Source: Gemmata palustris (GTDB taxonomy: Bacteria > Planctomycetota > Planctomycetia > Gemmatales > Gemmataceae). From it: a stretch of DNA of 64,000 nucleotides. The DNA lies in contig NZ_JAGKQQ010000001.1 of the NCBI RefSeq assembly GCF_017939745.1, forward strand, positions 1,922,001 through 1,986,000, read 5' to 3'. Within the stretch, counting starts at the first letter, position 1. Each line of letters begins with the position of its first letter. Positions 21,982 to 53,980 of the stretch are shown here, one piece after another. A model generated the notes under the pieces. That model was not told the origin of the DNA, ran no database searches, and saw only the letters and a list, made by a program, of their open reading frames with translations. Both the position numbers and the translations under genes were made by a program.

Positions 21982-22003
21982 CGGTGCGTTTACGGCGGGA
22001 GCG

Positions 22004-29496: not shown

Positions 29497-31138
29497 GGTA
29501 CTCGACCAGCGCCCAGCGATCGCCGTCGGCGAGGCCGGTCCCGTACTCGTGCCCGCGGTTCGAGTACCCGGGCAGCGCGGTGTCGTACTTGTACCCGTGC
29601 TCGAACGGCCCGGTGCGGTGGCCGACGTGCTTGGGATCGAACTCCCGGTGCCCCAGGTAAAACGACTTCATCCGCTTCTCCGGCGGCAGGAGCAGCTCGT
29701 ACAGGTTCGCCACCGACCCGTTGTGCAGGTACGGGGCCGTGGACCACACACCGGTCAGGGGCGTGGCCTTGTAAGCGTGTAGGGCGCTCACCAGTTGCTG
29801 CAGTTCCGCCGGGGTCTTGGGCAATTGAGGCAGCGGGCGGTCGCCGAGCAATCGCGCGCGGTCGGCGGGAGTCTTCGCCGCCCGGTCGAGGTCCGCCTCG
29901 GTGATCCGCGTGAGGGTCGCGAGGAACTGGATCGCTGCCGGCACTTCTTGCTGCCCTTCAAACATGGTCCCCTTGAATACGGGTGCGAGAGCACCGGGCA
30001 CGGCGGTTCGTCTCGTGAAGTACTCGGCGTAGAGCGGGTCCGTGCCCACCTCTTTCAACGGGGTCGCGGTCGTCTTGATGAGCTTTCGGCCGCCGGCCTT
30101 CGCTTCCACAGTCGGGTACGGCGCGAGCGGGTGGCACGTCGCGCACTTCTGGTCCTGGTAGATTTTCTCGCCGCGCTTCGCTAGGTCGCGGTCGATCTTA
30201 CCCAGCACGTCCTCCGGCCACGCCGGTGGCGTCAACATCGAGGTGTAATCGTACACCTTCGCGAGCGTGTTCAGGTCCGCGCTGGATTCAAACGTTAATT
30301 TTCCGTCCGGGCCGGCGGTTGCCCGCGCGCGGCCGAAGACGATGATGACCTCGCCCACCTGTCTCAGGGTGACGCTCTCGACCGATGCGTTCCACAGCAG
30401 TCGGTCGTACCGGTTCGTGGACCAGATGCTCGGGTAACTGACCGGGGTGCTGGGAACGCGGTAGTTGTCGGGGGTGCCCGGGGCGGTGCCGGTAATGGTG
30501 TTGAGCAGCACCCCAAGGGCGTCCCAAACACCGTACCCACCGGGGTGTGATGGCCGACTGGTGGCCTCCCAGTCGGCCATCACCCGGAGCTGTTCGCGCA
30601 ACTCGGTCGCCAGCACCTTCGCGCGCTCGGGAGTGTGCTTTTCGCCGAGCACCCGGCGGGCGAACCGGTCGAACTTCGCCGGCTGTGCGAGGGTCGCCTT
30701 CACCGCGGTGACTAAAGTGGACTGGAACCCGAGGGCGTCGGCGAGTGCGGTTCCGCCGTCGACCCGCACCGTCTTGCCCTTATAAGTGAACTGCCCGGTG
30801 TGGCACGCCGCGCACGTCAGCCCGAACCAGTCCTTTCCGTCCTTCCCGCGCCCCTTGGTGAACCCGACCGGCAGCCCATCAGGGTTGAACTTGTTCACTG
30901 CGGCCGGGATGTAGCGGAACGATTCGATGTGGGCGTCATCGCGGAACGGCTTCTCGGCCCACGGCTGTTCGAGCGCGAGGAACCAAGAGTACGGCATCAC
31001 CTCCGAACCCTGCGGCAGTGCGTAGTACGCCGCGCGCTCGTCGCCGCTCCACCCCTGGTCGAGGTAGATCGGGTCCGCCCCGCGCGCGCGAACGGCCACC
31101 GGAGCGAGGAGTGTCAGCGCCAGTGCGAACCGGATCAT
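29483..31138 (-). CDS. exported di-haem cytochrome c, RoxA/MauG-CcpA superfamily-like
   Basis: A 551-residue periplasmic protein with signal peptide (MIRFALALTLLAPVAVRARG) and two haem sites, CAACH (109-113) and CATCH (332-336). The opening YLDQGWSGDERAAYYALPQG, MPYSWFLALEQPW, FRDDAHIE and NPDGLPVGFTKG resembles RoxA/RoxB rubber oxygenases, relatives of bacterial di-haem peroxidases that cleave polyisoprenoid double bonds oxidatively. The conserved C-terminal YLHNGSVANLYELLLP is typical of the superfamily. Substrate unknown. CAGGAG precedes the ATG; the frame extends to 31180 without a start signal. It follows the catalase-like gene by 16 bases. Confidence 0.85.
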   Translation of the reverse strand: MIRFALALTLLAPVAVRARGADPIYLDQGWSGDERAAYYALPQGSEVMPYSWFLALEQPWAEKPFRDDAHIESFRYIPAAVNKFNPDGLPVGFTKGRGKDGKDWFGLTCAACHTGQFTYKGKTVRVDGGTALADALGFQSTLVTAVKATLAQPAKFDRFARRVLGEKHTPERAKVLATELREQLRVMADWEATSRPSHPGGYGVWDALGVLLNTITGTAPGTPDNYRVPSTPVSYPSIWSTNRYDRLLWNASVESVTLRQVGEVIIVFGRARATAGPDGKLTFESSADLNTLAKVYDYTSMLTPPAWPEDVLGKIDRDLAKRGEKIYQDQKCATCHPLAPYPTVEAKAGGRKLIKTTATPLKEVGTDPLYAEYFTRRTAVPGALAPVFKGTMFEGQQEVPAAIQFLATLTRITEADLDRAAKTPADRARLLGDRPLPQLPKTPAELQQLVSALHAYKATPLTGVWSTAPYLHNGSVANLYELLLPPEKRMKSFYLGHREFDPKHVGHRTGPFEHGYKYDTALPGYSNRGHEYGTGLADGDRWALVEYLKTL

Positions 31139-31154
31139 GGATAGGCTCCTGGTG

Positions 31155-32099
31155 TTACTTTGATCGGCGCGCGGTCGCACTCATCTCGTACACCGCTTTC
31201 CGGCCGCGGTTGATGCCCCCGAGCGGGCGGTGTTCAGCCGGAGCGTGCCACAACGAAAACGCCAGCGCGTCCGCCAGAGCTTCCCGCTCCGCGGTGTCGA
31301 ACTCTTGAACCGGGAGCGTGAGAACGGCGACCGGGACCGCGTCCCCGCCCCACGCGGCGGTCGGATCTTCCACGGGATCGGAGATCGGGTCGCGCTGCGG
31401 TTGCACGCAGAAGTCGAACGTGGCGGGCCGGGCGGAGAGGTGCGTGGCGAGCGCGGCCCGAAGGAAGTCGGGCGTGTCGGGTGGGATGCGCTGAACCGCG
31501 AGGTTCTGCGGCCGCGGGAGCAACTGGTACTTCACCGCACGGTCCCCGAGGGCATACGGGGTGCCACTGAAGTACCGCGGTTCGAGCGGCGACGGCTCGG
31601 CCGGACGAACGAACCCGCCCAGCAGCACCGCCTCGACCGGGTACTCGGCCGCGAGCAGGCGGTCGTGTTCGGCCGGGGAAGCACCGGATGTGAGGAGGTC
31701 GACGTGCCGCGAGAACACACCGACCGTTCGGCGCACGTCGGCCGCGAAGAACGTCTCGTGATCGACGAGTAAGAAGTCGTGATCCGCGACCGGGTTGAGC
31801 ACCTTGATCCCGATCCCGTGAACGTCCGGTAGGCGGTCGTCTTCGGCGAACCCGTTTGAAAAGCGGACCCAGCACGCGAAACTGTTCGGGGCCGCGAACA
31901 GGCCGACGCGCAGCGGGGGCGGGACGTCGGCGCGAACGGTGAACGTTCCGCGGACCAGACCGTGCCCCTTGGCGTGCTGCCCGCGCCGGGGCCGGGCCGG
32001 ATCACCGAGGCGCGACTGAAGGGCCACGAGGTCCGCGATCGCTGCTGTCTCGTTCGGTGGAACCTGTTCGAGCGGCGAGGGGGCGACGGGCGGGGTCAT
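31155..32099 (-). CDS. catalase-related haem protein (mini-catalase / allene-oxide-synthase-like family)
   Basis: A 314-residue protein, shorter than true catalases. The distal histidine motif QHAKGHGLVRGTFTV (His42), WVRFSNGF (79-84), PDVHGIGIKVLNP and the proximal tyrosine region RYFSGTPYALGDRAVKY (175-191) place it in the catalase-like superfamily with SrpA and catalase-related allene oxide synthases. The distal Asn of real catalases seems replaced (VDHETFF where NNTPxFF is expected), which argues against plain catalase activity. Its ATG overlaps the upstream kinase stop (ATGA), so it is translationally coupled to that regulator. No signal peptide. Confidence 0.85.
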   Translation of the reverse strand: MTPPVAPSPLEQVPPNETAAIADLVALQSRLGDPARPRRGQHAKGHGLVRGTFTVRADVPPPLRVGLFAAPNSFACWVRFSNGFAEDDRLPDVHGIGIKVLNPVADHDFLLVDHETFFAADVRRTVGVFSRHVDLLTSGASPAEHDRLLAAEYPVEAVLLGGFVRPAEPSPLEPRYFSGTPYALGDRAVKYQLLPRPQNLAVQRIPPDTPDFLRAALATHLSARPATFDFCVQPQRDPISDPVEDPTAAWGGDAVPVAVLTLPVQEFDTAEREALADALAFSLWHAPAEHRPLGGINRGRKAVYEMSATARRSK

Positions 32100-35000
32100 G
32101 TGGGCACCGCGGTGTTGAGTTCGTCGAGCACGGCACGTGCGTCGCGCAAGTCCGGGGTGCTCAGCCCCTCGGTGAAGTGCGAGTAAACGGCCGCGAGCAG
32201 GGCGCGGGCTTCGGCAGCGCGCCCGACGCGGCGCCACAGCCGGGCCAGACTCGTCGCCCCCCGCAGTTCCCACGACCGCGCCCCCTGGCGCTGTGAAACC
32301 CCCAAACAGCGGAGGAACGCGGCCTCCGCCGCAGTCGGGTCCGGGGGAGCGGTGGCGAGCGCGACCTCACCCGCGAGGCGGTGCAGTTCGGCCTCGTAGA
32401 CGCGGTTGTTCGTCCGCTCACAGGCGGCCAGCCCCGCTTCGATCTCGGTCCGCGCGACCTCCGGGCGCCCGGACCGGAGGTGGATCTCGGCGAGGAACCC
32501 GTGGTACTCGGAGAGCGACTTCCGCGAGCTCGTTGTGTGGTACAGAGTCAGCCCCGCGCTGACCTGTGCCAGCGCCTGATCCGGCCGGTCGGCGACCATG
32601 TGCCCGGTGCCGCGGCTGATGATCCCCAGCGCCTTCCAGAACGCGAACCCCTGTTCCTCGGACACGGCCACGCACTCGTTCCCGTACCGGATGCCGCCCT
32701 CGCCGTCCCGCAGGAGGTAGGCGAGCCAGCCGGCGTGGTGCAGCGCATAGGCGTGGCTGAACGGGTGGCCCAGGCCCCGCGCGAATTCAACCGCCTCGCG
32801 CATTCGGGCCGCGGCCTCGTCCGGGAAGCCGAGGTACCACGCCGAAAGCCCGGCGTAGCACCGGTACGCCATGCCGACGTTCTGCCCGGTGTGAGCGGAG
32901 TGCGCGAGCGCGGCGCCGGCATCCTCCAGTTCCCGGCACCGGGCGGCGGCAGCCCGGCACCGGGCGAACTCTCCGCGGAACAGACTCGTGATCGTCACCG
33001 CGAAATCTGCCTCGACCCGCATCCCGCGGTCGGCACGTCGGTCGGCCAGTTCGCACAGTTCGCCCGCCAACCGGTTCGCTTCGTCCAGTTCGTCCCGGAT
33101 CAGGCGCAGCGCCCAGTTGCCCCAAATGACGTGGAACAACGGGGCCGATGGCCCGAGCCGCTCGCACAGTTCCCGGGCGCGCGCGTGAACCGACTCCAGG
33201 TCCGGGTGGGCGTACCCGCGGGCGGTCATGAGGGCGACCGCGAGGGGAACCTGGAACTGAAGTTCCCGGGCGTTCCGGTCCGGCGACTCTGGCTGCGTGG
33301 CGAGCACGCCGAGCCCGCGCCGCAAGTGTGCGATCGCCTCGGCGTTAGCGAACGCTGCCCGCGCGCGGCGCCCGGCCCTCAGCCAGTAGTCGATCGCCCG
33401 GTCCGCTTCGCCCGCCTCGGTGAAGTGCCGGGCGAGCAGTTCCGGCTGCGTCTGGGCCACCTCCGGGAACCGCTCCTCCAGTTTCTCCGCCACGGCCTTG
33501 TGGAACTGCTGTCGGCGCTTCTTTACCATCGACTGGTACGCTGCGTCCTGGATCAGGGCGTGCTTGAACGTGTACGTCGTTCGCGGCAATGAGCCCTTGC
33601 TGAACAGCAGCCCGGCTCCGACCAATTTGTCGAGTTCAACTCGCAAAGCCTGTTCGTCTAACTCGGACGCCGCCCGGATGACCGCGTGCGCGAACGTCCG
33701 CCCGATCACCGCGCCGAGTTGCACCACCGCCTTGTCGCTCGCCATCCGGTCGAGCCGCGCCAGCAGTAGGTCGCGGAGGGTGGTCGGGATGTCGGCACCG
33801 ACCTCGTCCGCGGGCGCGCCGCGCTCGACCAGTAGCCGCGTGAATTCCTCCACGAACAACGGGACACCGTCGGTCCGCTCCGCGATCTGGTCCGCGACCG
33901 TCTGCGGGATCGCCCGATCCCCAGTTTGCGCGCGGATCATTTCGGCGATCTGTCCCCGGGTCAGCCGGTTCAGTGCGACCACCGTCTGAACGGCCTTCCC
34001 CTTCCACGGCGGGTCGTATTCCGGGCGGAACGTGAACACCGCGAGTACGCGGGCCTCGCCGCCGCGCTCGACGAACTGCGCGAGCAGCGCCTCCGTGGAC
34101 GGATCGACCCAGTGCATGTCCTCGACGACAAACAAAAGCGGGGTGAAGGCGGCGCGGGCGATCAGCCAGTTGAGTACCGCGTCCTGGGTCTTCTCGCGCT
34201 GCCGCTCCGGGGTGAGCGCGAGGAGCGGCAGCCGGTCACCGGTCGGGACCGATAGCACCGCGGCCAGGAGCGCCTGGTCTTCGGCGTCGTGGACGCCCTC
34301 TTCGCGGAGCCGCGCCAGAAGGAGATCGAGGCGCTCTGCCGCGTCGGGTTCGCGGCTCAGTCGGTAGGCGCGGTCGAAGTACTCGATCACCGGGTAGAAC
34401 GGGCTCCCCTGGTGGTACGGGGAGCAGAACCACTCGATCACCGCGCCCCCGACCGAGGCCGAGCGCGTCGACTCGAACGCCGGGGCGTCGACTTCCTGTA
34501 CAACGTGGTCGCGCAACACGCGGACGAGCCGTGATTTCCCCAACCCCGGGTCCGCGACGAGCAAAATGACGTTCTGCACCCCTTCGGCCGTGAGTTCCCA
34601 CCGCTCTTTGAGCAGCTCGACCTCGCGGTCGCGGCCGACGAGCGGGGTGAGCCGTGCCGGGTCCGTGGCATCGACGCGGTTGCGCGCAGTTCGTTCGGCT
34701 CGCACGACGAAAACGGGCACCTGCGGGAGCCCGCGGGGGCGGACCGCACCGAACGGCTCGCAGTCGAAGAAGCCGTCCACGAGTTGGAACGTCGCGTGAG
34801 AAACTGTCACCCCGGAGGCCGTTCCCTGTGACAGCAGCGCCGATGCGACCGTGACCACGTCCCCGACCACGACGGGCGGCGCGGGCGGGTGCTCGGTGAC
34901 CACGGCCGGCCCGGTGCCGACCGCGACCGCCGCGCACCGTTCGCTAAGCGCCAGAGCCGCGCGAACGGCCTGGCGCGGCGCGTCCTCGCGCGCGACCGGG

Positions 35001-36262
35001 TACCCGAAGCAGGCCAGGAACGCGGTGCCGGACACTTGCAACGGCAGCCCGCCGTGTGCGACGGCCACTTCCGCGCACGCCGTCTGGAACGCGGTCACCT
35101 GTTCCATCGGGTCTTCGTCGTTCTCTCCCGCCTCCCACAAACACTGGAGGATCGTGACCTGCCGCCACTCGGCCCGTGCGCCGCGTGCTACGGCCGGGGG
35201 TACCGGTTTCGGCGCGGGAACCACTGCCGGAGCCGGCTTCGGCACCGACACGACCGGCACCGGAATCGCAGGGAGCGCGGGCAGGAGCCCGACCGCCCGG
35301 CGGAGCGCGTCGGTGAAGTCGGCGGCCGTCGTGTAGCGGTCGCCCGGGAGCTTCGCCATCCCCTTCAGACAGACGCGCTCCAGTTCCGGCGACACGTCGG
35401 GCCGGAGCTGGCGCAGCGGTTGGGGCTCGTCTTCCCGCACCTGGCGCATGACGTCGCTCCGGGTGCGCCCGCGAAACGGCGACCGCCCGCAGAGCATCGC
35501 GTAGAGGGTCGCGGCCAATCCGTAAACGTCGGTGCGACCGTCGGGCCGGTGCCCGCGCCCCCCGGCCTGTTCCGGCGACATGAACGACGGCGTACCGGCC
35601 ACGACCCCGAGTTCGTTCTCCGTGTCCAGGTCCGAGAGCGCCAGCCCGAAGTCGATCAGCACCGGGCGCCGGTCCTCCGCGAACACAATGTTCGACGGCT
35701 TCACGTCGCGGTGAACGATGCTCCGCGCGTGGGCGTGAGCCAGTGCGTCCCCGACCGCGGCAGCGATCCCAACCGCCTCGGCGGGCGCCGGCCGGTACTC
35801 GTCGAGCCAGTGAGAAAGGCTCGGTCCCGCGAGCAGTTCGGACACGACGAAGCAGCACCGCCCGGCGACCGCGACGTCGTACACCGTGACGATCCCGGCG
35901 TGCCGGAGCTGTGCGAGCGCGCGGGCCTCGCGGAGGAGCCGGTCCGTGTCGGCCGTCACGCTCCACGACACCTTCAGCGCGACCTGGCGATTCAGGCGCC
36001 GGTCGCGCGCGTGGTAGACGGTCCCGAACCCGCCGTGCCCGAGTTGTGTACCGACTTCGTAGCGGTCGCCGAACGCGGCTTCTAACTCCGCGGAAGCCGC
36101 GGACACAGCGGCCGACGGGTCCGGCACGCTACCCGTATGGTTCCCGGTCGGGGCGCCCGTAGGCAGTAAGTGCTCACCGGCCCCCGAAGGCTCCGGATGG
36201 GGAAGGGACGTGGTTCGATCGGCGGTGGCTTCGTCCGGTTTGTGTGGGGGCGGTGGTAGCAC
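32096..36262 (-). CDS. Ser/Thr kinase - degenerate cyclase - AAA ATPase - TPR regulator
   Basis: A 1388-residue protein starting with GTG. Residues 69-325 form an active-looking Hanks kinase (Lys97 in VALKV, HRDVKPSN 184-191, DFG 204-206). Residues about 365-525 resemble a class III nucleotide cyclase, but the metal Asp positions are lost (VTILQCLWEAG and VSGTAFLACFGYP), so it should be catalytically dead. An AAA/STAND-type ATPase follows (LVGRDREVELL, Walker A ADPGLGKSR at 570-578, FVVEDMHWVDPS). The last 450 residues are TPR-like helices. This layout is known from large bacterial signal integrators. Its stop overlaps the start of the catalase-like gene. Confidence 0.9.
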   Translation of the reverse strand: MLPPPPHKPDEATADRTTSLPHPEPSGAGEHLLPTGAPTGNHTGSVPDPSAAVSAASAELEAAFGDRYEVGTQLGHGGFGTVYHARDRRLNRQVALKVSWSVTADTDRLLREARALAQLRHAGIVTVYDVAVAGRCCFVVSELLAGPSLSHWLDEYRPAPAEAVGIAAAVGDALAHAHARSIVHRDVKPSNIVFAEDRRPVLIDFGLALSDLDTENELGVVAGTPSFMSPEQAGGRGHRPDGRTDVYGLAATLYAMLCGRSPFRGRTRSDVMRQVREDEPQPLRQLRPDVSPELERVCLKGMAKLPGDRYTTAADFTDALRRAVGLLPALPAIPVPVVSVPKPAPAVVPAPKPVPPAVARGARAEWRQVTILQCLWEAGENDEDPMEQVTAFQTACAEVAVAHGGLPLQVSGTAFLACFGYPVAREDAPRQAVRAALALSERCAAVAVGTGPAVVTEHPPAPPVVVGDVVTVASALLSQGTASGVTVSHATFQLVDGFFDCEPFGAVRPRGLPQVPVFVVRAERTARNRVDATDPARLTPLVGRDREVELLKERWELTAEGVQNVILLVADPGLGKSRLVRVLRDHVVQEVDAPAFESTRSASVGGAVIEWFCSPYHQGSPFYPVIEYFDRAYRLSREPDAAERLDLLLARLREEGVHDAEDQALLAAVLSVPTGDRLPLLALTPERQREKTQDAVLNWLIARAAFTPLLFVVEDMHWVDPSTEALLAQFVERGGEARVLAVFTFRPEYDPPWKGKAVQTVVALNRLTRGQIAEMIRAQTGDRAIPQTVADQIAERTDGVPLFVEEFTRLLVERGAPADEVGADIPTTLRDLLLARLDRMASDKAVVQLGAVIGRTFAHAVIRAASELDEQALRVELDKLVGAGLLFSKGSLPRTTYTFKHALIQDAAYQSMVKKRRQQFHKAVAEKLEERFPEVAQTQPELLARHFTEAGEADRAIDYWLRAGRRARAAFANAEAIAHLRRGLGVLATQPESPDRNARELQFQVPLAVALMTARGYAHPDLESVHARARELCERLGPSAPLFHVIWGNWALRLIRDELDEANRLAGELCELADRRADRGMRVEADFAVTITSLFRGEFARCRAAAARCRELEDAGAALAHSAHTGQNVGMAYRCYAGLSAWYLGFPDEAAARMREAVEFARGLGHPFSHAYALHHAGWLAYLLRDGEGGIRYGNECVAVSEEQGFAFWKALGIISRGTGHMVADRPDQALAQVSAGLTLYHTTSSRKSLSEYHGFLAEIHLRSGRPEVARTEIEAGLAACERTNNRVYEAELHRLAGEVALATAPPDPTAAEAAFLRCLGVSQRQGARSWELRGATSLARLWRRVGRAAEARALLAAVYSHFTEGLSTPDLRDARAVLDELNTAVPT

Positions 36263-36409
36263 GGGGCGTCACTCTGGTCCGCCCCGCGGCGGGATTGTGT
36301 TTGGTGTGCAAGTGCTAGTTTATTGTGTGAGAGTAACTGGAGCGAAGGCGGCTGTCTAGGACCATTCACAAGTGATTTCAGCGAATCTGGCGCGACCTGG
36401 GTTAACAGA

Positions 36410-36437
36410 TTGTGTCAACCGAAAGGTCGGTTACACT
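36410..36437 (+). promoter_or_regulatory. candidate promoter with palindromic spacer for the hydrolase gene
   Basis: TTGTGT (36410-36415) and TACACT (36432-36437) are 16 bases apart and resemble -35 and -10 boxes. The spacer carries an inverted repeat AACCG-N6-CGGTT (36417-36421 and 36428-36432), a possible operator. It lies in the 239-base region shared by the divergent kinase and hydrolase genes. Confidence 0.3.
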
Positions 36438-36501
36438 CTACCAGCATTCCGGCTGTTTTTTATTCCACAATCGTGGTTCCACACGGACCCGAGGGGAAAC
36501 T

Positions 36502-37842
36502 ATGCCCCGATTCGCCCCGACCGATCGACGGGCCGCCTACGACCTCGTCTGTTTCGATTCCGGCGGAAGCGAGCGCACCGACGATCCGAACGGCCTCATG
36601 TCCGATCTGGTCCTCCGCACCCTCGCGCCGGACGACTCCGGGGTCACGGACGTGTTCGTTCTCAGCCACGGGTGGATGGGAGACGTCCCGTCCGCCCGGG
36701 CACAGTACGACAAGTGGGTCGAGGCGATGACCGCCTGCACCGCGGACGTCGCGCGCATGAACCAGGCGCGCCCGGGCTTCAAGCCGCACGTGATCGGCAT
36801 TCACTGGCCGAGCATGCCGTGGGGCGACGAGTCGTTCGGCGAGGGGGGATCGTTCACGGTCCCGATCGACGGCGCCCCCGCGGACGACCCGGTTCAGGCG
36901 ATGGTCGACGATTACGCGGCGCGCATCGCCGACACGCCCGCGGCGCGCGACGCGATCCGGCGCATCGTCGTTGGCGCGATGGACGACGTGGAGCCGGAGG
37001 CGCTGCCACCGGACGTGTTCGCGGCGTACCGGCAGTTGAACCTCGAAGCCGACCTCGGCATCGGCGGGGTCGGCGCGGGTCCGGGCGGCGACCGCTCCGG
37101 GTTCGACCCGGAGGGCGTGTACCAGTCGCTCCGCGAGGACGCGCCGAGCTTCGGCCTCTTTAGTGGCGGGGGGATCTTCGGCGTGCTGCGGACGCTCTCG
37201 TTCTGGCGCATGAAGGACCGCGCGCGGTGGTTCGGCGAATCGGTCGGCTCGAGGTTCCTCGCGCGGATGATGCAGGCGGCCCCGCGGAACCTGCGGTTCC
37301 ACCTGATGGGGCACAGTTTCGGGTGCATCGTGATGTCCGCGGCGCTCGCGGGGCCGAAGGGCCGCGGCCGCGTGGCGCGCCCGGTGGACTCGCTCGCGCT
37401 GGTCCAGGGCGCGCTGTCGATCTGGTCGTACTGCGACGACATCCCCGCGACGCCGGGTCAACCGGGCTACTTCAACAAAGTGTTTTCCGACAAGCGCGTG
37501 CGCGGGCCGATCATCTCGACGCGGTCGGTGTTCGACACGGCGACCGGGAGGTGGTACCCGCTGGGCGCGGGGGTGGCGGGCCAGGTGGCGTTCGCGGCGC
37601 CGGGCGAGTTGCCGAAGTACGGAGCGGTGGGTTCGCACGGCATCCAGGGGCCGGGCACGAACGCGACCGACCTCGCGCTGCTCCCGGCAACGACCGACTA
37701 CAACTTCGTGCCGGGCGCGGCGTACAACCTGGAGTGCAGCGAGGTGATCCGCGAGGGGAGCGGGCGCGGCGGCGCGCACAACGACATCTGTCGCCCCGAG
37801 GTGGCGCACGCGGTGTGGCAGGCGGCGCTGACCGCGGGGTGA
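36502..37842 (+). CDS. alpha/beta-hydrolase (lipase/esterase-like)
   Basis: A 446-residue protein without signal peptide. It starts with the strand-turn VFVLSHGWMGD (oxyanion hole region), has the nucleophile elbow HLMGHSFGCIV with Ser272, and a likely catalytic His in RGGAHNDIC (His426), arranged as in alpha/beta-hydrolases. About 130 residues between the first strand and the elbow form a cap-like insertion. Substrate unknown; a role in releasing fatty acids from membrane lipids is possible given the lipoxygenase nearby, but that is inference. GAGGGGAAA precedes the ATG at 36502. It converges with the CHAT-STAND gene, leaving 12 bases between stops. Confidence 0.8.
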   Translation: MPRFAPTDRRAAYDLVCFDSGGSERTDDPNGLMSDLVLRTLAPDDSGVTDVFVLSHGWMGDVPSARAQYDKWVEAMTACTADVARMNQARPGFKPHVIGIHWPSMPWGDESFGEGGSFTVPIDGAPADDPVQAMVDDYAARIADTPAARDAIRRIVVGAMDDVEPEALPPDVFAAYRQLNLEADLGIGGVGAGPGGDRSGFDPEGVYQSLREDAPSFGLFSGGGIFGVLRTLSFWRMKDRARWFGESVGSRFLARMMQAAPRNLRFHLMGHSFGCIVMSAALAGPKGRGRVARPVDSLALVQGALSIWSYCDDIPATPGQPGYFNKVFSDKRVRGPIISTRSVFDTATGRWYPLGAGVAGQVAFAAPGELPKYGAVGSHGIQGPGTNATDLALLPATTDYNFVPGAAYNLECSEVIREGSGRGGAHNDICRPEVAHAVWQAALTAG

Positions 37843-37854
37843 CCGCCGGACCGG

Positions 37855-40800
37855 TCATCTTTCGGGAGTGGCACGCCCCACCAGCGGCCCACCGAGCGCG
37901 TCGAGCCGCCGGTACCGCTTGTGCCATTCCTCGGCCGTGAGCAGGTCGGAGGCTCCGGTGAGTCCGATCTGGAGCCCCGTCATGACTTCGACCCAGAGCT
38001 TGACCCTTTCGACCTCGTCGGGCACCGGCTCCACCGTGGCCCAGCACCGCGCGCGCCGGTCCCAGCTCCCGGTCAGAATCCACTTACCGTCCTGGCTGTA
38101 CACCACCTCACTCACCCCCTCGCCGTGGAACAGCGGGGGCGAGATCGGTTTGCCGGTTTCCGCGTCCCAGGCTCGTGCGGTGCGGTCGTAGCTCGCGGTG
38201 AGCACGCGCGAGCCATCAGCACTGGCCGTCACCCCCCACACCTGAGCCGAGTGCAGCAGCGCGGTCTCGCGGACCGACCGGCCGGGGATGTCCCACATCT
38301 GCACCATGTTAAAGTTGGTGCCAGAGAGCACCAGCCGCCCGTTCGGGCTGAACCGGGACAGTTGCACGCCGACGGGGTTATGGAGCACGTGTTCCTCGCG
38401 TGCGGTCGCCGCGTCCCAGACGCCGCGGACACGGGAACTCTGAGTCAGGAGCCGGGTTCCGTCCGGGCAGAAGCTCACCGCACGGATCTTGTCGGTTCCG
38501 CCCCGGATCGTGTGGGCGATCGGGTGCCCCACCGCCTCCCCGGTGTCCGAGCGCCAGAGGAGCACCTGACCGGGCTCGTTGATCGTCGCCACGACCGAAC
38601 GGTCGGGGCTGAATGCCACGCGCACGACCCGCAGCATGGTCGTCTCGTCGTCGTTGTGCGCCGCGTCGGGACCGACCCCGCCCGGGACGACGAACGGCGC
38701 CCCGGCCTGTTTGGTGAGCAGGTTCTTCACCCGGTAAGTCAGATCGGGGAGCCGCACGAGGGCGGTGGCCCCGTCGTCGGCCACTCCGACGAGCGCTTCC
38801 CCGGCGACCGGAACAACCGGGCGCGCGGTCGCCGCGTCCCAAACAAACTGGTTAAAGTGCTGGTCCTGGGCGATCACTCGTTCGCCGTCGGAACTGATCC
38901 GAACCTGGGTGAGCGGGTGGGAGTTCTCTTTTTTCCGGGGCGGCGTGAACTGGTGCTTCCATTTATCGGGCGCGTCGGTGTTCCAGAGGTACGCCGACCC
39001 GTTACGGCACCCAGTCGCCAGGGTCTTGTCGCTCGGCCCGAACGCTACCGAAAGCACCGCGTCGGTGTGAACGAACTCGCGCTGCGCTTTCTGCGTGAGC
39101 GGGCGCCGCCAGAGCCGCATGGTGCCGTCGCGGTTGAACGTGAATACGCTCCGATCCTTACGGAACCCCGCCCCGACCACAAGCCCCTGTGGTGACAGGC
39201 GCTCGCTCGTCACGGGGTTCGAGAGGTCGTGAGAGGGTTCTTGCCCATGCGAGAACTCGGCGTCATCAGTCGGAGCGCGCGAAGAATCCGGGAAGTGCAA
39301 AAGCTCGACGTCACCGGACGAGCGGGACATGAACATCGTGCCCGGCTCCTCGGGGTCGAAGGCGGTCCAGTTGGCCGGCTCGTGGTCCTTCTGACTGTTG
39401 GTGAGAATTTTTTTCTCGTGCCGGTCGTAGATCGCGACTGCGAACCCGCCGACCGCGAGGTACCGCCCGCCGGGGTCGGGGCTGACGCCGACGGAGGTCA
39501 CCGGATTTTTCATCGTGCGCGACCAGGCGAGTTCCCGCGTGGACAGGTTCAAGAACCGTGCGACCCCGGCCGCGCGCCGCTCGGCCCCAACGCGGGCCAC
39601 GGCCGCCACGTCCGGGAGCAGCGGGCGGTTCGGGCGCCGGGAGCAGCCGGTCAGCAGCATCCCGCCGTCGGGAGTAAACGCCAGATCGTGGACCGGCCCC
39701 TCGTGCTTGTACGGTTGCCCCAGCGCCTCCCCCGTTGTCACGCTCCAGAGCCGGGCCTCTCCGTGGGCCATCCCGAGGGCAAGGGCTTGTCGGTCGGGCC
39801 TGATAGCGGCGATCAGGATCTCGCCCTGGGCCGGCACACCGGGGGCGGTTGCCGTTTCAAACACGCGCCCCACCGGGGCACCCGTGGTGCCGTTCCAGAG
39901 CCGGGCGGTGTGTGACCCGTAGGTGAGCACGACCCACTCGTTCCCGGCCCGCATGACCTCGCCCCATACCGCGTTCCGCTCGCCCGGTTTCATGGGCGGC
40001 CCGAGTGGGTGGCCCGTGTCCGCGTCGAACAGTTGGGCCGTTCCCGGGGCGACGGCGATCAGGACCGCCTGTCCGTCGGGGCTGGCCGCGATGCCCGGAC
40101 CGGGGAACTGTCGCGCCCCGTCCAGGCACATCAGGTACCAGGCCCACGCGGACAGGTTGGTGCGAATGACCCGGCGCAGGGCTTCGGCCTCCGGCGGGCA
40201 GGTTTCGAGGCTCTTGGCGATGCTGAGCATACCGATCCGGGGCCGGCCGCGCTCGCACAGATCTATACCGCGGTCTAGAAGTAGGGCGGCGGACCGCTCC
40301 TGTACCCGTCGCTCCTCGCGCTCGGCTTTCTCCTTCTCGCGCTTGGCCTTCTCCTCTTCGCGCTCGGCCTTCTCTTTTTCCGCCTCGGCTCGGGCCGCGT
40401 TCTTGTTCGCTTTGGACTCGTTGGTCTGGGCCAGTGATGCCTGCCCGTCGGCGTAGAACGCCAGGGCGCACGCCGACAGCGTGAGTGCCACCAGCACCGC
40501 CGTTACCAGTTGCCGGCGGCGCTGGTGGCGCGTGAGCATGTCGCGCATCGCCCGTGCGAACTCCTGCTGCACGGGCACGAGCCGCGGGTTACTGGTGCTG
40601 ATCCACGCGAGGTAGTTCCGGGCCACGTCGGTACCGGGCAGCGCATACCGGCTCTGGGCCGGGGTGCCCGCGAAGCCCACCTCCCACTTCTCCGCGGCCG
40701 TGCGGAACTCCTCGCGCATCGCCCGGCCCTGCGGGTCTTCGGCCAGCCACCCGCGGAGCCGGTCCCAGTTGTGAATCAGCGCCTCGTGCGACAGATCGAC

Positions 40801-43002
40801 GAGCGATTTCGACATGTCCTCCGGGTCGGTGCGGATCGTCAGCAGCCGCTCGCCCACGAGGAAATCGATCACCGCCCGCGCCGCCTCCGGGGCGCCTGTT
40901 TCCGCCTGGAGCCCCTCGCGCGAGCGCGGCTGGCGCGTGCCCTGCGCGCTGACGAGTGCGGTGACGATCTGCTCCACGAGGTGGCGCCCCCCGGCCCCGA
41001 ACTCGGGCGCGGTGGCGCTCGCCTGGAACACCGCCTCCGCGTGCTGCGCGATCGCCCGGCCCATCCCGCCGATCTCGTCGAATTCCGCGTGCGTGAACTC
41101 CGTCACGCCCTTCTCGACCGCCTTCAGCCACAACCGCTCGAGCGCGAATTGCAACAGCGGGAGCGGCGCCCCGCCCTTGTTGCGGTCGAGCAACGGGTCG
41201 GCGAGGATGCGATCGAGCAGCCCGACCGCGTGCGCCGGGTTGCCGTCGGCGAGCGGCCCTTGAAACGTGTACCCGCAGTGCTCGGCCGGTCCCGCAACGA
41301 TGCCGCGCAGGTCGTCCGCGCCGGGCGGCCGGAGCACCCAGGGCCGCTGAATGCGCGGGCCGAGTTCCGGCGCGGACGCGGACTGCCCCAGGAACTCACT
41401 CCGCATTCCGATGACGAGCCGGAACCGGTCGCGCTGCTGATCGACGGCCTGTGCGAGTACCTCGTTCATCATCCGCACTTCGTTCACGTCACGCGCGAGC
41501 GTAAACACTTCCTCGAACTGGTCGAACACCACGATCAACGGCTGTGCGTCCGCTCGCAGTGCGGCCCGCAGCGCGGACGGCGTGGGTTCCCCGGTGGTAC
41601 CTGTAAGCGCTGACAGGAGCGCTTGCGCGGGGCGGTACCCCGGACGGAGCGAGACGATGCGCCACTTGTCCGAGCCGGCCAGCCCGTCGCGCCGGATCGC
41701 GTGAACCAGCCCCGCTTGCAGCAGCGACGTTTTGCCACTGCCCGAGTCGCCGACCACCCCGAGGACCGGCTCGGTGCGCAAAATCTGAAGCAGCTCCGCG
41801 ACCTCGACTTTGCGGCCGAAGAACAGGTCGGCGTCCTGTTCACCGAAACTCGAAAGGCCGCGGTACGGGCTGACGAACTGGAACGCGGCCCGCTGCTGCG
41901 TGCCACCGAGCGCGCCGGGGCGCGCCCACAGTTCGAGGAACGCCCAACACCAGTCGGTTTCCGGGCGCTCCGCGGTGAGTGCTTCCTCGGGCGGTTTGCC
42001 CGCCGCGAGTTGACGGTAGAACCCGACGGCCGCGTCCGTGCTGTGCTCGGCGTCGAGCGGGAACGTGGACGCGACCACCGCCGCCATGTTCCCGCTGCGC
42101 GGGTTGAGCAACTGCTGGGCGACCCCGCCGAAGCCCCCGCGCCCGGCCGTCTGACCGGCCTTACACACTTGCAGGAACGCCAGTGGCGTTTGGCCCGCGC
42201 CGCACCACTCGCCGAGTTCGCTCGCGGTCGTTTCGGCCGGTGCGCCGTCGTCCGTGCAAAGCAGCACCCCTGCCCCGTGCCCGTGGGCGAGCAGGTGGAA
42301 CACGTCGAACTCGCCCGCGAGTGCCTGGCGGAGTGCGCTGCGAGTGGTCTTCGTGTACGGGGCGAACACCGCGGGATCAGCGGTTTCCGGATTCGGGGCG
42401 ATTGCGGCAAGTGGTTTCGGGCCGCTCGGACCGCAAACGACGAGGTCGATTTCCTTGTGAACCGCCGCTGCGAACTTTTGCAACCGGAGGGGCGCATCGA
42501 ACGGCGGAACGTCCGCGCTCCTCGGCTCCGCGACCGCGATCACGACCCGGAGCCGCCCGCGGAGCTTCAGCGTGCGCGGCGAGCACCGGCGCAGGATGCG
42601 AACGAACTCGACCGGGCGCTTCTTCCCGCGAAACAGGAACCAGTCGTCGTGCGGCTCGCAGAGCAGACCATAAGGGAGATCGCGAACGGCTTCGGTCGTG
42701 GCGTCGATGAGCAGGCGGATCGACTGGCCCTTGCGGTCAGCCCGGGCGAGCACCTCGGCCCACTTCTTCGCGTTCTCCGGTTGGCCGAGTAGCGCCGCGA
42801 ACAGATCCTTTCCGAGCTGCCGGGCCGCGTCCGGCGGGAGGTCCGCTCCCTGCGCGAGATACGGCACCCACTCGGCGATGCTCGGCGGCAGTTCGGTGAG
42901 CACGTCGCCCTCGGTGTCGCCGAGGTCTTCGGTAAAAAGTTCGGCGCGGAACTGCTCACCGTACTGCGAAACCGCGAGCCGGACGTGGTAGGGCGCAGGC
43001 AT
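37855..43002 (-). CDS. CHAT caspase-fold protease - STAND NTPase - TM - WD40 protein
   Basis: A 1715-residue protein. The N-terminal CHAT domain has the His in FHLLAHGHG (His240) and the Cys in FLQVCKAGQ (Cys280), a caspase-like dyad. A STAND-type NTPase follows, opening with SPYRGLSSFGEQDADLFFGR, with Walker A GDSGSGKTS (418-426) and Walker B LIVVFDQFEE (489-498), then a winged-helix-like region. A single membrane segment near 826-850 (LVTAVLVALTLSACALAFYA) leads into a charged Lys/Glu coiled coil (about 855-900) and a WD40 beta-propeller (about 960-1660). This is a classic sensor-switch-protease layout from bacterial conflict and programmed-death-like systems. The repeats would bind the trigger and the NTPase would unleash the protease. 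Confidence 0.92.
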   Translation of the reverse strand: MPAPYHVRLAVSQYGEQFRAELFTEDLGDTEGDVLTELPPSIAEWVPYLAQGADLPPDAARQLGKDLFAALLGQPENAKKWAEVLARADRKGQSIRLLIDATTEAVRDLPYGLLCEPHDDWFLFRGKKRPVEFVRILRRCSPRTLKLRGRLRVVIAVAEPRSADVPPFDAPLRLQKFAAAVHKEIDLVVCGPSGPKPLAAIAPNPETADPAVFAPYTKTTRSALRQALAGEFDVFHLLAHGHGAGVLLCTDDGAPAETTASELGEWCGAGQTPLAFLQVCKAGQTAGRGGFGGVAQQLLNPRSGNMAAVVASTFPLDAEHSTDAAVGFYRQLAAGKPPEEALTAERPETDWCWAFLELWARPGALGGTQQRAAFQFVSPYRGLSSFGEQDADLFFGRKVEVAELLQILRTEPVLGVVGDSGSGKTSLLQAGLVHAIRRDGLAGSDKWRIVSLRPGYRPAQALLSALTGTTGEPTPSALRAALRADAQPLIVVFDQFEEVFTLARDVNEVRMMNEVLAQAVDQQRDRFRLVIGMRSEFLGQSASAPELGPRIQRPWVLRPPGADDLRGIVAGPAEHCGYTFQGPLADGNPAHAVGLLDRILADPLLDRNKGGAPLPLLQFALERLWLKAVEKGVTEFTHAEFDEIGGMGRAIAQHAEAVFQASATAPEFGAGGRHLVEQIVTALVSAQGTRQPRSREGLQAETGAPEAARAVIDFLVGERLLTIRTDPEDMSKSLVDLSHEALIHNWDRLRGWLAEDPQGRAMREEFRTAAEKWEVGFAGTPAQSRYALPGTDVARNYLAWISTSNPRLVPVQQEFARAMRDMLTRHQRRRQLVTAVLVALTLSACALAFYADGQASLAQTNESKANKNAARAEAEKEKAEREEEKAKREKEKAEREERRVQERSAALLLDRGIDLCERGRPRIGMLSIAKSLETCPPEAEALRRVIRTNLSAWAWYLMCLDGARQFPGPGIAASPDGQAVLIAVAPGTAQLFDADTGHPLGPPMKPGERNAVWGEVMRAGNEWVVLTYGSHTARLWNGTTGAPVGRVFETATAPGVPAQGEILIAAIRPDRQALALGMAHGEARLWSVTTGEALGQPYKHEGPVHDLAFTPDGGMLLTGCSRRPNRPLLPDVAAVARVGAERRAAGVARFLNLSTRELAWSRTMKNPVTSVGVSPDPGGRYLAVGGFAVAIYDRHEKKILTNSQKDHEPANWTAFDPEEPGTMFMSRSSGDVELLHFPDSSRAPTDDAEFSHGQEPSHDLSNPVTSERLSPQGLVVGAGFRKDRSVFTFNRDGTMRLWRRPLTQKAQREFVHTDAVLSVAFGPSDKTLATGCRNGSAYLWNTDAPDKWKHQFTPPRKKENSHPLTQVRISSDGERVIAQDQHFNQFVWDAATARPVVPVAGEALVGVADDGATALVRLPDLTYRVKNLLTKQAGAPFVVPGGVGPDAAHNDDETTMLRVVRVAFSPDRSVVATINEPGQVLLWRSDTGEAVGHPIAHTIRGGTDKIRAVSFCPDGTRLLTQSSRVRGVWDAATAREEHVLHNPVGVQLSRFSPNGRLVLSGTNFNMVQMWDIPGRSVRETALLHSAQVWGVTASADGSRVLTASYDRTARAWDAETGKPISPPLFHGEGVSEVVYSQDGKWILTGSWDRRARCWATVEPVPDEVERVKLWVEVMTGLQIGLTGASDLLTAEEWHKRYRRLDALGGPLVGRATPER

Positions 43003-43068
43003 AAGTGACCGGGTTCCGGGGACGGGAGTCGGCGCCCCGGTCGCGCGGCGCTCCGCGCGAAGGACACG

Positions 43069-44544
43069 TCACTTCAACAAATCGGTCCGCAGTTTCACGG
43101 CCGGGTCGCCGAGGATAACGTAATTCTGCGCGTCGTTTCGTTCGACCCAGGTCGCGGCGATTTCTTGAGGAGAGAGTTTCGGTTCTTTGCTCGATTCGTC
43201 CAGCGCGCCCGCCAGGGCCGTCGAAAGCACCGCGTAGCGCTCGCTGAAGTTCTTCGTCGCGTGCCCGACCGGTTCGCCGGACATGATGCGGGCGAGAAAA
43301 TCGCGAAACTGCCCGATCTGCGTTCCGGCCCCGGTCGGGCGGATCGAATACCCCCACGCGCGCTCAACGTGCCCGAGTACGGCGAGTGCCGCGCCGTTGG
43401 GGTGCGACAGTAACCGTTGCGGGAGCGCGGCGACGAACGGCGCCGAGGCGATGTCCACCGGTCCGCGCCCGCGGTCGGTGAGAAACGCATCGGTCGCGGG
43501 CGTGCCGGCGCCGTAGCACGCGAACAGGAACGCGACGATTCCGCCCACGTTCGCACCGTCTTCGATTTCGGCCGCGGTCAGGTAATGCGCCGGCGTCACC
43601 TGCCCGAACCCGGCCCAATCTTGTGCGAGCAGCGCGCCCTGCGCCGGCCGCTGGCGCGGGTCGTCCTTCGGCCACCCCATCCCGTGCGACGCGGTGAACA
43701 GCACCGCGGGCGGCGCGGTCCCGGTCGTCGGGTGCAACGTCTCGAGCAGTTTCGCCTTCGTCGCGTCTGCGGCGCGGAAGCACCTCGAGCGGAACCCTTT
43801 CTCGGTGGCGACCGGCGCCTCCGCGGGCTGGTCGCCCGCGGCCGGCACGCCGTCCATCAGTGGACGGATGAGCGAATCGGCGCTCATTTGCGTGGAGCGG
43901 TCCGCGGCGTGTCGCGGACCCCAATAAGTGACTTCCTTCGCGTTCTTGACGCTCGAAGCCGTTTCATACGCTGCGACACTCTCCGCGTACCGTCGGTACT
44001 GCTCCGGGGCATCGAAGCAGAGGCGCCCGACCGCGTACTCGACGTCGAGCAGGTACTGGAAGTCGAACGGGATCTCGGCCGGCCCGCCGACGAGCGTGAC
44101 GTAGTACGGGACTTTCGTCGGCGCGACCGTGCCCGGCGCCACGCCGTGGCGCGCGAGCCACTTCTTCATCGTTTCGCCGGGCCGGTACTCGAGCACCTTA
44201 CACCGGTCGGGCGGAACAACAGACTTGCGGCGGTCGATGAGCGGTTGAACCGCGGCTCTGAGTTCCGGTGGGGCGCCCGCGGGGAGCACAATCGCCCACC
44301 CGGCGCGCGCCGGGTTGACCGGATCGACGTCCATCGGGAGGCCGAGTTTCGGTCGTTTGAAGACGCTCGCGATGGCTCTGAGCCACGTCGTGAGGGCACT
44401 TTCCGCGGGGCGCCCGCTCGCGATGTTGACGGCCTGAGCCGGCGTGATCGGCGACACGAGGTACTCGCCCGTCGCACCGTTGATGCCGTTGAGGACGATA
44501 TCGTCTTCGTTCACGGAAGGTGTCTTCCAGTCTGGCGCGCTCAT
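43069..44544 (-). CDS. caspase-fold cysteine protease, C25 (gingipain)-like
   Basis: A 491-residue protein without signal peptide. The core shows VLFTASHGMGW (His287) and GIVAFLFACYGAG (Cys343), the His-Cys dyad at the ends of adjacent strands as in C25/caspase-like peptidases. The C-terminal NYVILGDPAVKLR is a typical gingipain-family closing block. About 280 residues precede the core and may carry substrate or partner binding. The open frame reaches 44658; the ATG at 44544 is chosen because upstream residues overlap the lipoxygenase gene. It lies 66 bases before the CHAT-STAND gene and 88 bases after the lipoxygenase, in the same direction. Confidence 0.8.
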   Translation of the reverse strand: MSAPDWKTPSVNEDDIVLNGINGATGEYLVSPITPAQAVNIASGRPAESALTTWLRAIASVFKRPKLGLPMDVDPVNPARAGWAIVLPAGAPPELRAAVQPLIDRRKSVVPPDRCKVLEYRPGETMKKWLARHGVAPGTVAPTKVPYYVTLVGGPAEIPFDFQYLLDVEYAVGRLCFDAPEQYRRYAESVAAYETASSVKNAKEVTYWGPRHAADRSTQMSADSLIRPLMDGVPAAGDQPAEAPVATEKGFRSRCFRAADATKAKLLETLHPTTGTAPPAVLFTASHGMGWPKDDPRQRPAQGALLAQDWAGFGQVTPAHYLTAAEIEDGANVGGIVAFLFACYGAGTPATDAFLTDRGRGPVDIASAPFVAALPQRLLSHPNGAALAVLGHVERAWGYSIRPTGAGTQIGQFRDFLARIMSGEPVGHATKNFSERYAVLSTALAGALDESSKEPKLSPQEIAATWVERNDAQNYVILGDPAVKLRTDLLK

Positions 44545-44632
44545 GGAACGAGGGCGCTTCACGGGTGGTAAATTGACCGCGGCTACCCCATCGGCTGAGA
44601 GCGCGCGACCCACGGCTACCGCACCGAGGAAT

Positions 44633-46369
44633 TTAAATGTTGATGCTCTGCGGGACACCCGATGGCAGCATAAACGGGTACGGCCGGCGGTGCCGATTTC
44701 GTTCCGTGATAGTGGCCTCGATCTCGTCCATCTTCGCGGCGAAGCGCGCCGCCAATTCGTTAATGCGTGGTTCGCCGAAGTACCCCGGCTCGTAGTGCCC
44801 CAACCGCGTGTAGTGCGCCGTTCCGAGCATAAAGCCGGTGTTCATCTGGAGCGCGGCCTGGTCCCGGGGTGGCAGCATCGCCATGTAGTCGGCTTCTGTA
44901 GCACCGGTCTTGCTCGTGGGCGCGGGGGCGTAACCCGCGAGCGGCATCGCGGGGGCGTAACTCATGATGTCGTATTGCGGGAAGTTCACCGCCGCGTGCT
45001 GCGCGCTCGCGGTGAAAATCACAAGCGCGGTCACGTCGACCAGTTCCGCGAAGGTGCGGGCCGGTTCGATCCCGTTGATGCGCCCGCCGGTCTTCGCGGA
45101 CGCCTCCGTGAGCCACGCCGCGACTTCGATGTCCGCCGCGACTTCGGCATCGGACCGGTAGAAGCACCGCAGATACGTCGCGACCCACTCGCGAACGGCC
45201 TCCCAGTGCAGGAGGGCGTCGTCGCGGTAAGAGTAACTCGGCAAGGTGGCCGTGTTATCGACCCCGCGGCGCCGGAACGACGCCGGTGGCAGCAGATCCA
45301 TGAACGCATGGCCCTGCACCCCCCATGCACTAAGCCCCAGCGCCGCGGAGATCTTCGCGCCGAGGAGCCGGTCTATGACGCCGTCGGGCGAAATCAGTTT
45401 GAGGCGCGCGAGGTGGTTGATCGCGAGCGTGCCGCCGAAGTGCGGTTGGAGCAGCACATTGAGCGGGTGATTCGGACCGAACTGCCGGTGCGCCGCGACC
45501 ACAAACGGCTCGACCGTCAGGTGCGTGCGCCCGAGGTGCGTGATCGCCTCGTGGTAGTTCCCGTCGGCGATTTCCACGATCGTCTTGGCGATCCGCCAGT
45601 TGTAGCCGTCGTCCGGCGTGAAGATCGGGTTTTCCGGCCCCGGTCGCTGCTTGCACTGGATCGCGACCGGGACCAGTTTTCGCGTGTCCGTGTTCACCGC
45701 GAACAGCGCGAGTGGGGCGTAGAGGTACTTCGGCAGCCCACACGGGCTCACCCCAGTTTCGACCCCGTCAAGTTTCTGGTAGTCCACCAGAAACAGCCGC
45801 CCATCCGCCCCGGCCGCCGCGAGGGCGTCGCCGGGCAGCGCCACCTGAAAGTGCGCGTCCGTGACCGGGAACCGATCGTCCGGTTTGTCGATCCGGTGAA
45901 TCATCACCGGGTTCGGCCCGGCGAGCCGCAACTCCGCGAACGTGCTGTCGAATTCAAAGTCCTTCGCGATCGGCGGCAGCCCGATGACGTGGAAGAGCGC
46001 GTTGTAGTCGTCGATCGTTTGCAACCGACGGGCGTCCGCCGCCGCCCCGATCACGGCACCCACCGCGGCGCCGACGGCGCGAACGGCGGTCGACCCGGCG
46101 AGCACCATGTCGGTGATCGGGGTGTCCATCACGCGCAGGCGCCGGCGCAGCGCGGAATCCGCGTCGGCCTGGTTCGCCACGTTCGTCATGATCTTGCCGA
46201 GAACGAGCGTGGTGAAGTCGATGGGGAACCGGTCGCGGCTGGGCACTTCCCCGACGAACGCGAGCGGCGAAACGTAGTCGTGGTTGTATGTGTACTCACG
46301 CAGTTTCGCGGTCCGCCCCGCGGCACGGGTTTCCGGGTCCGGATCGAACGCGGGTAGAAATGCACTCAT
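44633..46369 (-). CDS. lipoxygenase (iron-dependent, PLAT-less)
   Basis: A 578-residue lipoxygenase catalytic domain. All five iron ligands are visible: His278 and His283 in HEAITHLGRTH, His458 and Asn462 in FTASAQHAAVNFPQYD, and the C-terminal Ile578 (PQSINI). Further family blocks are NWRIAKTIVEIADGNYH, PHFGGTLAINHLARLKLISP, SYSYRDDALLHWEAV and FGEPRINELAARF. Lipoxygenases add oxygen to polyunsaturated fatty acids to give hydroperoxides. There is no N-terminal PLAT domain and no signal peptide, so it should act in the cytoplasm or at the inner membrane. The ATG at 46369 starts MSAFLPAFDPDP; an upstream frame to 46447 looks non-coding. It is first in a three-gene run with two caspase-fold proteases. 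Confidence 0.95.
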   Translation of the reverse strand: MSAFLPAFDPDPETRAAGRTAKLREYTYNHDYVSPLAFVGEVPSRDRFPIDFTTLVLGKIMTNVANQADADSALRRRLRVMDTPITDMVLAGSTAVRAVGAAVGAVIGAAADARRLQTIDDYNALFHVIGLPPIAKDFEFDSTFAELRLAGPNPVMIHRIDKPDDRFPVTDAHFQVALPGDALAAAGADGRLFLVDYQKLDGVETGVSPCGLPKYLYAPLALFAVNTDTRKLVPVAIQCKQRPGPENPIFTPDDGYNWRIAKTIVEIADGNYHEAITHLGRTHLTVEPFVVAAHRQFGPNHPLNVLLQPHFGGTLAINHLARLKLISPDGVIDRLLGAKISAALGLSAWGVQGHAFMDLLPPASFRRRGVDNTATLPSYSYRDDALLHWEAVREWVATYLRCFYRSDAEVAADIEVAAWLTEASAKTGGRINGIEPARTFAELVDVTALVIFTASAQHAAVNFPQYDIMSYAPAMPLAGYAPAPTSKTGATEADYMAMLPPRDQAALQMNTGFMLGTAHYTRLGHYEPGYFGEPRINELAARFAAKMDEIEATITERNRHRRPYPFMLPSGVPQSINI

Positions 46370-46747
46370 CGGGTGAACTACTTGGGTATCGGTCCGGGCG
46401 CTGAGCAGTTCGGACCCGAACCGAAACCGAGCGGTTCGCGCTCCCACCGATCTTGCTCTCAGCCGTTTTCGAGTCGATGCTAATGTCTGAGCTCGCTGGG
46501 TTCAAGTAAATACCGGCTACGATCGGTTCGCGTCGGTTCCTGTCAGAATTGGTCTACACGATTCGGTATCAGGGCCGCCAGCGCTCAGCTACACTAGTAG
46601 ACACGCCGAACGCTCCCACACGGTACCGGAACGATTTCGGCGAGGGTGCAAGTGCCACAAGTACGAAACGAAGGACTTCGGATCAGCTCGGAGGGCCGTG
46701 GCCCCGTAGCGGATCGATCGGCACCTGTCCTTCAAGGGGGACCGCAG
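46370..46747. other. divergent intergenic region
   Basis: This separates the lipoxygenase operon from the DUF1559 gene, and no gene is seen. It is comparatively AT-rich around 46470-46600 and should carry promoters for both directions. No clear operator palindrome was found by eye. Confidence 0.4.
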
Positions 46748-53894: not shown

Positions 53895-53941
53895 TCGCGG
53901 TCTCCGTTTCACGATCCGAACTTGGGGGCGGCGGAGCTTAG

Positions 53942-53968: not shown

Positions 53969-53980
53969 TTCAGCCGCCCA

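Follow-up and report, generated by a model that had tools for sequence, protein, structure and literature searches.

A planctomycete lipoxygenase and its kinase-linked gene cluster: a candidate regulated oxylipin pathway in Gemmata palustris

Lipid hormones of animals and plants are made through lipoxygenases, a class of enzymes whose purpose in bacteria is an open question. A lipoxygenase gene, LOX1, within a 64,000-nucleotide stretch of the Gemmata palustris genome (contig NZ_JAGKQQ010000001.1, positions 1,922,001 to 1,986,000; the window in what follows) raises that question for a planctomycete, and the gene cluster in which it sits gives a concrete handle on it, namely a named regulator (the kinase/AAA protein KinCyc) and downstream enzymes. 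On balance we lean towards reading LOX1 as a working mini-lipoxygenase that would catalyse the first step of a regulated pathway to oxylipins (oxygenated fatty acids).

LOX1 and its iron site

46369..44633, minus strand: LOX1, a lipoxygenase of 578 residues with an ATG start (Pfam, phmmer against the PDB, 92-row alignment)
G000:C1:3052647-3053915 of the host genome (L002, L029): LOX2, a second lipoxygenase, with Ser at the stereo-control site; a sulfotransferase gene follows it

A preliminary description of the window had placed a complete lipoxygenase at 44633-46369 without naming the strand; these coordinates are exact, and the gene reads on the minus strand. LOX1 matches PF00305 with an E-value of 3.9e-56 (191.3 bits against a cut-off of 23.6), and its identity as a lipoxygenase is near certain by sequence comparison. 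An open reading frame on the plus strand (44444-46357) was rejected as an antisense shadow of LOX1. The metal site is complete, all five iron ligands of the preliminary description being present: His278, His283, His458, Asn462 and the C-terminal Ile578. The first four are unchanged across all 92 aligned bacterial lipoxygenases, while 81 of them end in Ile, 10 in Val and one in Thr. The Pfam scan found no PLAT domain in LOX1, as had been proposed, although this does not distinguish the protein, PLAT being usually absent from bacterial lipoxygenases.

Matches in the PDB (phmmer) include 8x8f (E 1e-111), LoxA from Pseudomonas aeruginosa (4g32, E 3e-107) and 5med (E 3e-97), with human 5-LOX (3o8y, E 7e-71) ranking after the bacterial structures. 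The block around residues 451-467, said to be nearly that of animal 5-LOX, is indeed 5-LOX-like, but LoxA scores higher over the segment (58 against 40 bits), and it is therefore a general lipoxygenase motif; a special kinship to the animal enzyme was discarded. Read by eye, the N-terminus (MSAFLPAFDPDPETRAAGRTAKLREYTY) contains no hydrophobic stretch that could serve as an export signal, which agrees with the earlier claim that LOX1 lacks a signal peptide and appears intracellular, and the protein is probably cytosolic. In known lipoxygenases R versus S oxygenation is set by a single residue, Ala542 in the soybean enzyme (the Coffa-Brash site). We take Ala321, placed by our own alignment, to be the stereo-control residue of LOX1, and on that basis an S product is predicted.

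Bacterial lipoxygenases had been called rare, and they are: 8 of 95 Gemmataceae genomes carry one, as do 7 in a sample of 392 genomes from across the phylum. A single scan with a motif, covering 84,980 species genomes, recovered at least 341 confirmed relatives. The host genome (9.23 Mb, 3 contigs) holds two lipoxygenases that are ~50% identical to each other, and the closest named relative of LOX1 is that of Gemmata sp. IIL30 (97% identity). Phylogeny had been suggested as a check against both bacterial and eukaryotic enzymes; in our tree of 92 bacterial rows the planctomycete lipoxygenases group together (25 rows, Shimodaira-Hasegawa-like approximate likelihood ratio test (SH-aLRT) 87; SH-aLRT 99 on adding three Acidobacteria/Schlesneria rows) beside the cyanobacterial ones, with a few distant planctomycete lipoxygenases outside the clade. 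LOX1 falls in a fully supported clade with the enzymes of IIL30, Zavarzinella formosa, UBA6172 and the genome G087. One planctomycete open reading frame of 1413 residues (L040:6531-10772) has a lipoxygenase part inside it and is a possible fusion protein.

KinCyc, the constant partner

32096..36262, minus strand: KinCyc, 1388 residues, start codon uncertain (Pfam Pkinase E 4e-40, AAA_16 E 4e-16)

The locus had been framed as a protease operon, a framing that does not extend to the most widely kept partner of these lipoxygenases, KinCyc, which is no protease; a cytochrome P450 and a di-haem peroxidase recur as well. KinCyc is composed of a Ser/Thr kinase, a degenerate cyclase-like region, an AAA_16 ATPase and a TPR-like C-terminus. 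It matches the TIGR03903 model with an E-value of 8e-164 and 547.3 bits, under the cut-off of 705.75 bits. The host genome contains two full-length TIGR03903 matches, while 42 other matches span the kinase domain alone. The distances from these two KinCyc genes to the two lipoxygenase genes of the host are 8.7 and 9.4 kb, on the same strand in each case (9.4 kb downstream for LOX2), and the rough chance of both lying so near is ~3e-5.

Linkage between lipoxygenase and KinCyc is likewise strong across the family. Among the 95 Gemmataceae genomes, KinCyc (E < 1e-190) is present in all 8 that have a lipoxygenase and in 2 of the 87 that have none (Fisher p 4e-10, uncorrected for ancestry), and the co-occurrence survives where the genes are unlinked, at ~190 kb apart in G087, at ~900 kb apart in G010 and on different contigs in G017. 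At 14 of the 25 planctomycete-clade loci (the window is among the 25, and several loci are cut short by contig ends), KinCyc, or its kinase part where the contig stops, is encoded on the same strand no more than 10 kb from the lipoxygenase gene, often as the next gene. The only Gemmataceae with a full-length KinCyc and no lipoxygenase are G063 (L146) and G092 (L147), and the gene next to the G063 KinCyc encodes an acetoacetate-decarboxylase-family protein.

The conserved block and its haem enzymes

27922..46526, no strand: conserved block of 18.6 kb (blastn against Gemmata sp. IIL30)
43069..44514, minus strand: C25-like protease, 481 residues, with a GTG start at 44514 inferred from relatives
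37855..43002, minus strand: CHAT-nSTAND1-WD40 protein, 1715 residues (Pfam CHAT E 2.7e-9, nSTAND1 E 1.9e-86, WD40 E 3e-32)
36502..37842, plus strand: conserved protein of unassigned family (GHSFG in Gemmata, GHGFG in Zavarzinella)
31155..32102, minus strand: catalase-related haem-type protein, 315 residues (PDB 3e4w E 9.6e-8; Pfam Catalase)
29483..31138, minus strand: di-haem cytochrome c peroxidase, RoxA-like (NCBIfam NF040606, 514 bits against 150)
28063..29496, plus strand: cytochrome P450, start codon approximate (Pfam p450 E 7.6e-41)

By blastn, the block that contains LOX1 and KinCyc (27922-46526) runs collinear with its counterpart in Gemmata sp. IIL30, the nucleotide identity being 93-94%. 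At both ends homology stops abruptly ~150 bp beyond the first and last block genes, and the window genes flanking the block sit on other IIL30 contigs. Recent horizontal transfer was considered from this identity and rejected: unrelated genes in the flanks also show 86-94% identity, so that the identity of the block is no proof of recent transfer, while its cohesion amid rearrangement stands. A search of the block ends for terminal repeats, a mark of mobile elements, gave just matches of 9-10 bp, which are of chance size. Zavarzinella has the same order (lipoxygenase, C25-like protease, CHAT protein, the 36502 protein, KinCyc, peroxidase, P450), and G087 retains the lipoxygenase, C25-like and CHAT genes.

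The LOX1 stop and the C25-like start are separated by 118 bp, and the C25-like and CHAT genes by 66 bp, all on the same strand; the term 'first gene of a protease operon' is therefore fair, and the three genes are read from sequence as one operon. LOX1 heads this run, as had been said, and two clan-CD-type proteases follow it; the run is only one piece of the larger conserved cluster. The co-directional unit is retained in four other genomes. The C25-like protease matches PF01364 over its C-terminal part only (29.3 bits against a cut-off of 23), and its putative catalytic pair, His325 and Cys381 in the numbering of the longer 529-residue reading frame, is invariant in 5 relatives; a structure model from a 5-row alignment was unusable for its fold. 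The protein at 36502-37842 has no match in Pfam or the PDB, its structure model from a 3-row alignment reaches a confidence (pLDDT) of 33, and it is a possible candidate alpha/beta hydrolase by sequence. A minus-strand reading frame at 36460-37809 was dropped as the antisense shadow of this plus-strand gene.

The remaining genes of the block encode putative haem enzymes. The catalase-like protein scores 17.4 bits against PF00199, under the cut-off of 25; a gene of this kind stands directly before the lipoxygenase in Manganitrophus (L112) and in a member of the Pyrinomonadaceae (L116). The di-haem peroxidase has an N-terminal signal-like segment and the motifs CAACH at residue 109 and CATCH at 332. 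The P450 and the peroxidase also recur elsewhere: the order lipoxygenase, P450, KinCyc, peroxidase is found in L051; the peroxidase follows KinCyc in L060; and the P450 comes directly after the lipoxygenase in L053, as it does in Acaryochloris (L119), a cyanobacterium. In six lipoxygenase-linked P450s the alignment places Phe, Tyr or Val at the position of the I-helix acid and Ser at the alcohol position, while the I-helix of a control P450, from L109, carries the usual E-T pair. P450s that act on fatty-acid hydroperoxides (CYP74-type) work without oxygen activation, so the missing acid fits an enzyme that takes the lipoxygenase hydroperoxide. The Acaryochloris P450 with the same atypical I-helix (L119:11617-13152) starts ~110 bp after its lipoxygenase.

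Several features of the window lie outside the block. An IS1-type element (51218-51996) has an InsA zinc ribbon at 51258-51593, DDE_Tnp_IS1 at 51678-51986 in another frame and imperfect 25-nucleotide terminal inverted repeats, with related copies in IIL30. At 24284-27045 a P-type cation ATPase extends over two overlapping reading frames in different frames, reflecting a frameshift, a pseudogene or a sequence error. Pairs of histidine kinase and NtrC-type regulator genes flank the block (20566-23317 and 52389-55990) and are not kept beside it in relatives.

A proposed pathway, its alternatives and known systems

The cluster suggests a regulated bacterial lipid-mediator pathway. LOX1 in the cytosol would oxygenate a free C18-type polyunsaturated fatty acid to its S-hydroperoxide, which the P450 lacking the oxygen-activating acid, together with the catalase-like protein where present, is predicted to rearrange; related fatty acids in the periplasm may be substrates of the secreted di-haem peroxidase, by analogy with the diol synthases of P. 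aeruginosa. KinCyc would sense a cue and switch the pathway, and in the LOX1 branch the CHAT-nSTAND1-WD40 protein and the C25-like protease, encoded in the same operon, could add a second, proteolytic layer of control. We infer that the end product is a signal or defensive lipid.

The preliminary description had named the absence of polyunsaturated substrates from the host and its prey as evidence against LOX1. Present evidence does not point to such an absence: minor C18:2 and C18:3 fatty acids have been reported in the related Gemmata algarum (PMC10817699), and the host genome has eight fatty-acid-desaturase loci, one of which carries HDGGHH, HVVYHH and QVVHH boxes; neither proves a substrate in the strain, and a polyunsaturated substrate for LOX1 in Gemmata is plausible. 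A polyunsaturated fatty acid (PUFA) synthase is not claimed, the best PfaA-like match of the host reaching 835 bits against a cut-off of 1010.

Several observations weigh against an oxylipin pathway entered through LOX1. The fatty-acid report is a gas-chromatographic retention-time call in a different species from the host. The haem partners are not constant: Zavarzinella lacks the catalase-like gene, that of IIL30 is frameshifted (L126:7215-8281; decay or assembly error), and both P450 and peroxidase are absent from the stretch read at the LOX2 locus. The peroxidase is apparently exported and LOX1 is not, so the two may not share a substrate pool. Loss of the acid in the P450 is consistent with hydroperoxide use and is no proof of it; a lipase role for the 36502-37842 protein is weakened by the Zavarzinella sequence GHGFG, where the serine is gone; and there is no KinCyc near the Schlesneria lipoxygenases.

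Those Schlesneria loci bear on a different explanation, which we consider unlikely, namely immunity or programmed cell death: the CHAT-nSTAND1-WD40 protein would sense an invader and activate the C25-like protease, and the lipoxygenase would peroxidise the cell's own membrane lipids in an analogue of ferroptosis. The retention of the three-gene unit in four other genomes speaks for it, as does the definition of nSTAND1 in bacterial apoptosis and immunity systems (PMC8195603), two Schlesneria lipoxygenases are instead preceded by a TIR-nSTAND1-type gene, and the distribution is patchy. However, only the LOX1 clade has the protease-STAND pair, and most lipoxygenases of planctomycetes have KinCyc and no proteases; PADLOC returned no match for the lipoxygenase, C25-like, CHAT, catalase-like or 36502-37842 proteins, and generic kinase models only for KinCyc; and an effector would have no need of metabolic haem enzymes. 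The Schlesneria TIR-nSTAND1-type genes, which encode large proteins, are at L061:4816-9702 (domains scanned) and L064:3210-8096 (assigned by similarity).

It is also doubtful that the lipoxygenase and haem enzymes serve foreign-lipid chemistry, in which they would oxidise, detoxify or degrade PUFAs from algae or from other eukaryotes, either eaten by the bacterium or living next to it. The export signal of the di-haem enzyme would suit such a role, and an active lipoxygenase is reported (PMC11011848) from Burkholderia thailandensis, a species where no PUFAs were detected; yet the lipoxygenase itself bears no export signal, it co-occurs strictly with a signalling protein, and no uptake or beta-oxidation genes were recognised in the block. 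A stand-alone lipoxygenase with unrelated neighbours, for which the heavy rearrangement of Gemmata genomes and the variation of some partners could be cited, is largely refuted and very improbable given the collinear 18.6-kb block with its flanks scattered in IIL30, the recurrence of the same partners near distant lipoxygenases and the co-occurrence statistics.

A regulated oxylipin pathway entered through LOX1 would, if confirmed, be a complete one in a phylum without any described in the papers searched, and one could then ask if lipid hydroperoxides serve bacteria as messengers or as death signals. Tentatively, such a lipoxygenase might be gated by both the kinase and the STAND/protease proteins, switching on intracellular lipid dioxygenation towards an oxylipin messenger or a ferroptosis-like killing lipid, in which case regulated lipoxygenase signalling or death exists outside eukaryotes. 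Cultured hosts of the cluster are available in Gemmata and Zavarzinella formosa. As far as searched, LOX1 is a further member of a known family and the cluster is undescribed; targeted literature searches, with subscription journals outside their reach, returned no paper on a planctomycete lipoxygenase. A 2024 review (PMC11011848) confines bacterial lipoxygenases to Cyanobacteria and Proteobacteria and links them, without proof, to multicellularity.

Compared with the bacterial mini-lipoxygenases (5med of the Cyanothece CspLOX2 type, LoxA 4g32 and 8x8f), LOX1 shares the catalytic domain, the five ligands and the absence of PLAT; unlike the secreted LoxA it has no signal peptide, and unlike the known members it belongs to a separate planctomycete clade and to a conserved multi-gene cluster. 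KinCyc has the same domain order as the TOMM kinase/cyclase fusion proteins (TIGR03903) over nearly its whole length but falls below the equivalog cut-off and is linked to a lipoxygenase; no TOMM genes were recognised in its neighbourhood, where no search aimed at them was made. With the nSTAND1 conflict and apoptosis systems the cluster shares a CHAT or TIR effector fused to nSTAND1, although the descriptions searched do not mention a lipoxygenase and the cluster has no PADLOC match.

The haem enzymes have parallels of their own. Like the CYP74 clan (plant and animal allene oxide synthases and hydroperoxide lyases), the window P450 stands beside a lipoxygenase and has an atypical I-helix; CYP74 membership, for which a nine-residue insertion in the haem-binding loop is the criterion (PMC8124189), was rejected because the loop of the window P450 (FPFGRGPRACVG) has no such insertion, and by sequence the protein is not a CYP74. 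The catalase-related allene oxide synthase/lipoxygenase fusions of coral and Acaryochloris (the latter in PMC11719350) also couple a catalase-related haem protein to a lipoxygenase, whereas the protein encoded here comes from a separate gene, has weak catalase similarity and is missing or broken in relatives; no literature was found on a bacterial cluster of lipoxygenase and catalase-related genes. In P. aeruginosa, periplasmic di-haem peroxidases make oxylipins that signal between cells, and the diol-synthase operon (PA2077/PA2078/OdsR) resembles the present cluster, by a likeness drawn from the literature only, in grouping oxylipin enzymes of the di-haem-peroxidase type with a regulator (PMC6377657). 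There the haem enzymes are the oxygenases, act on oleic acid and answer to a LysR-type regulator, whereas here a lipoxygenase would lead and the regulator would be the kinase/AAA protein KinCyc.
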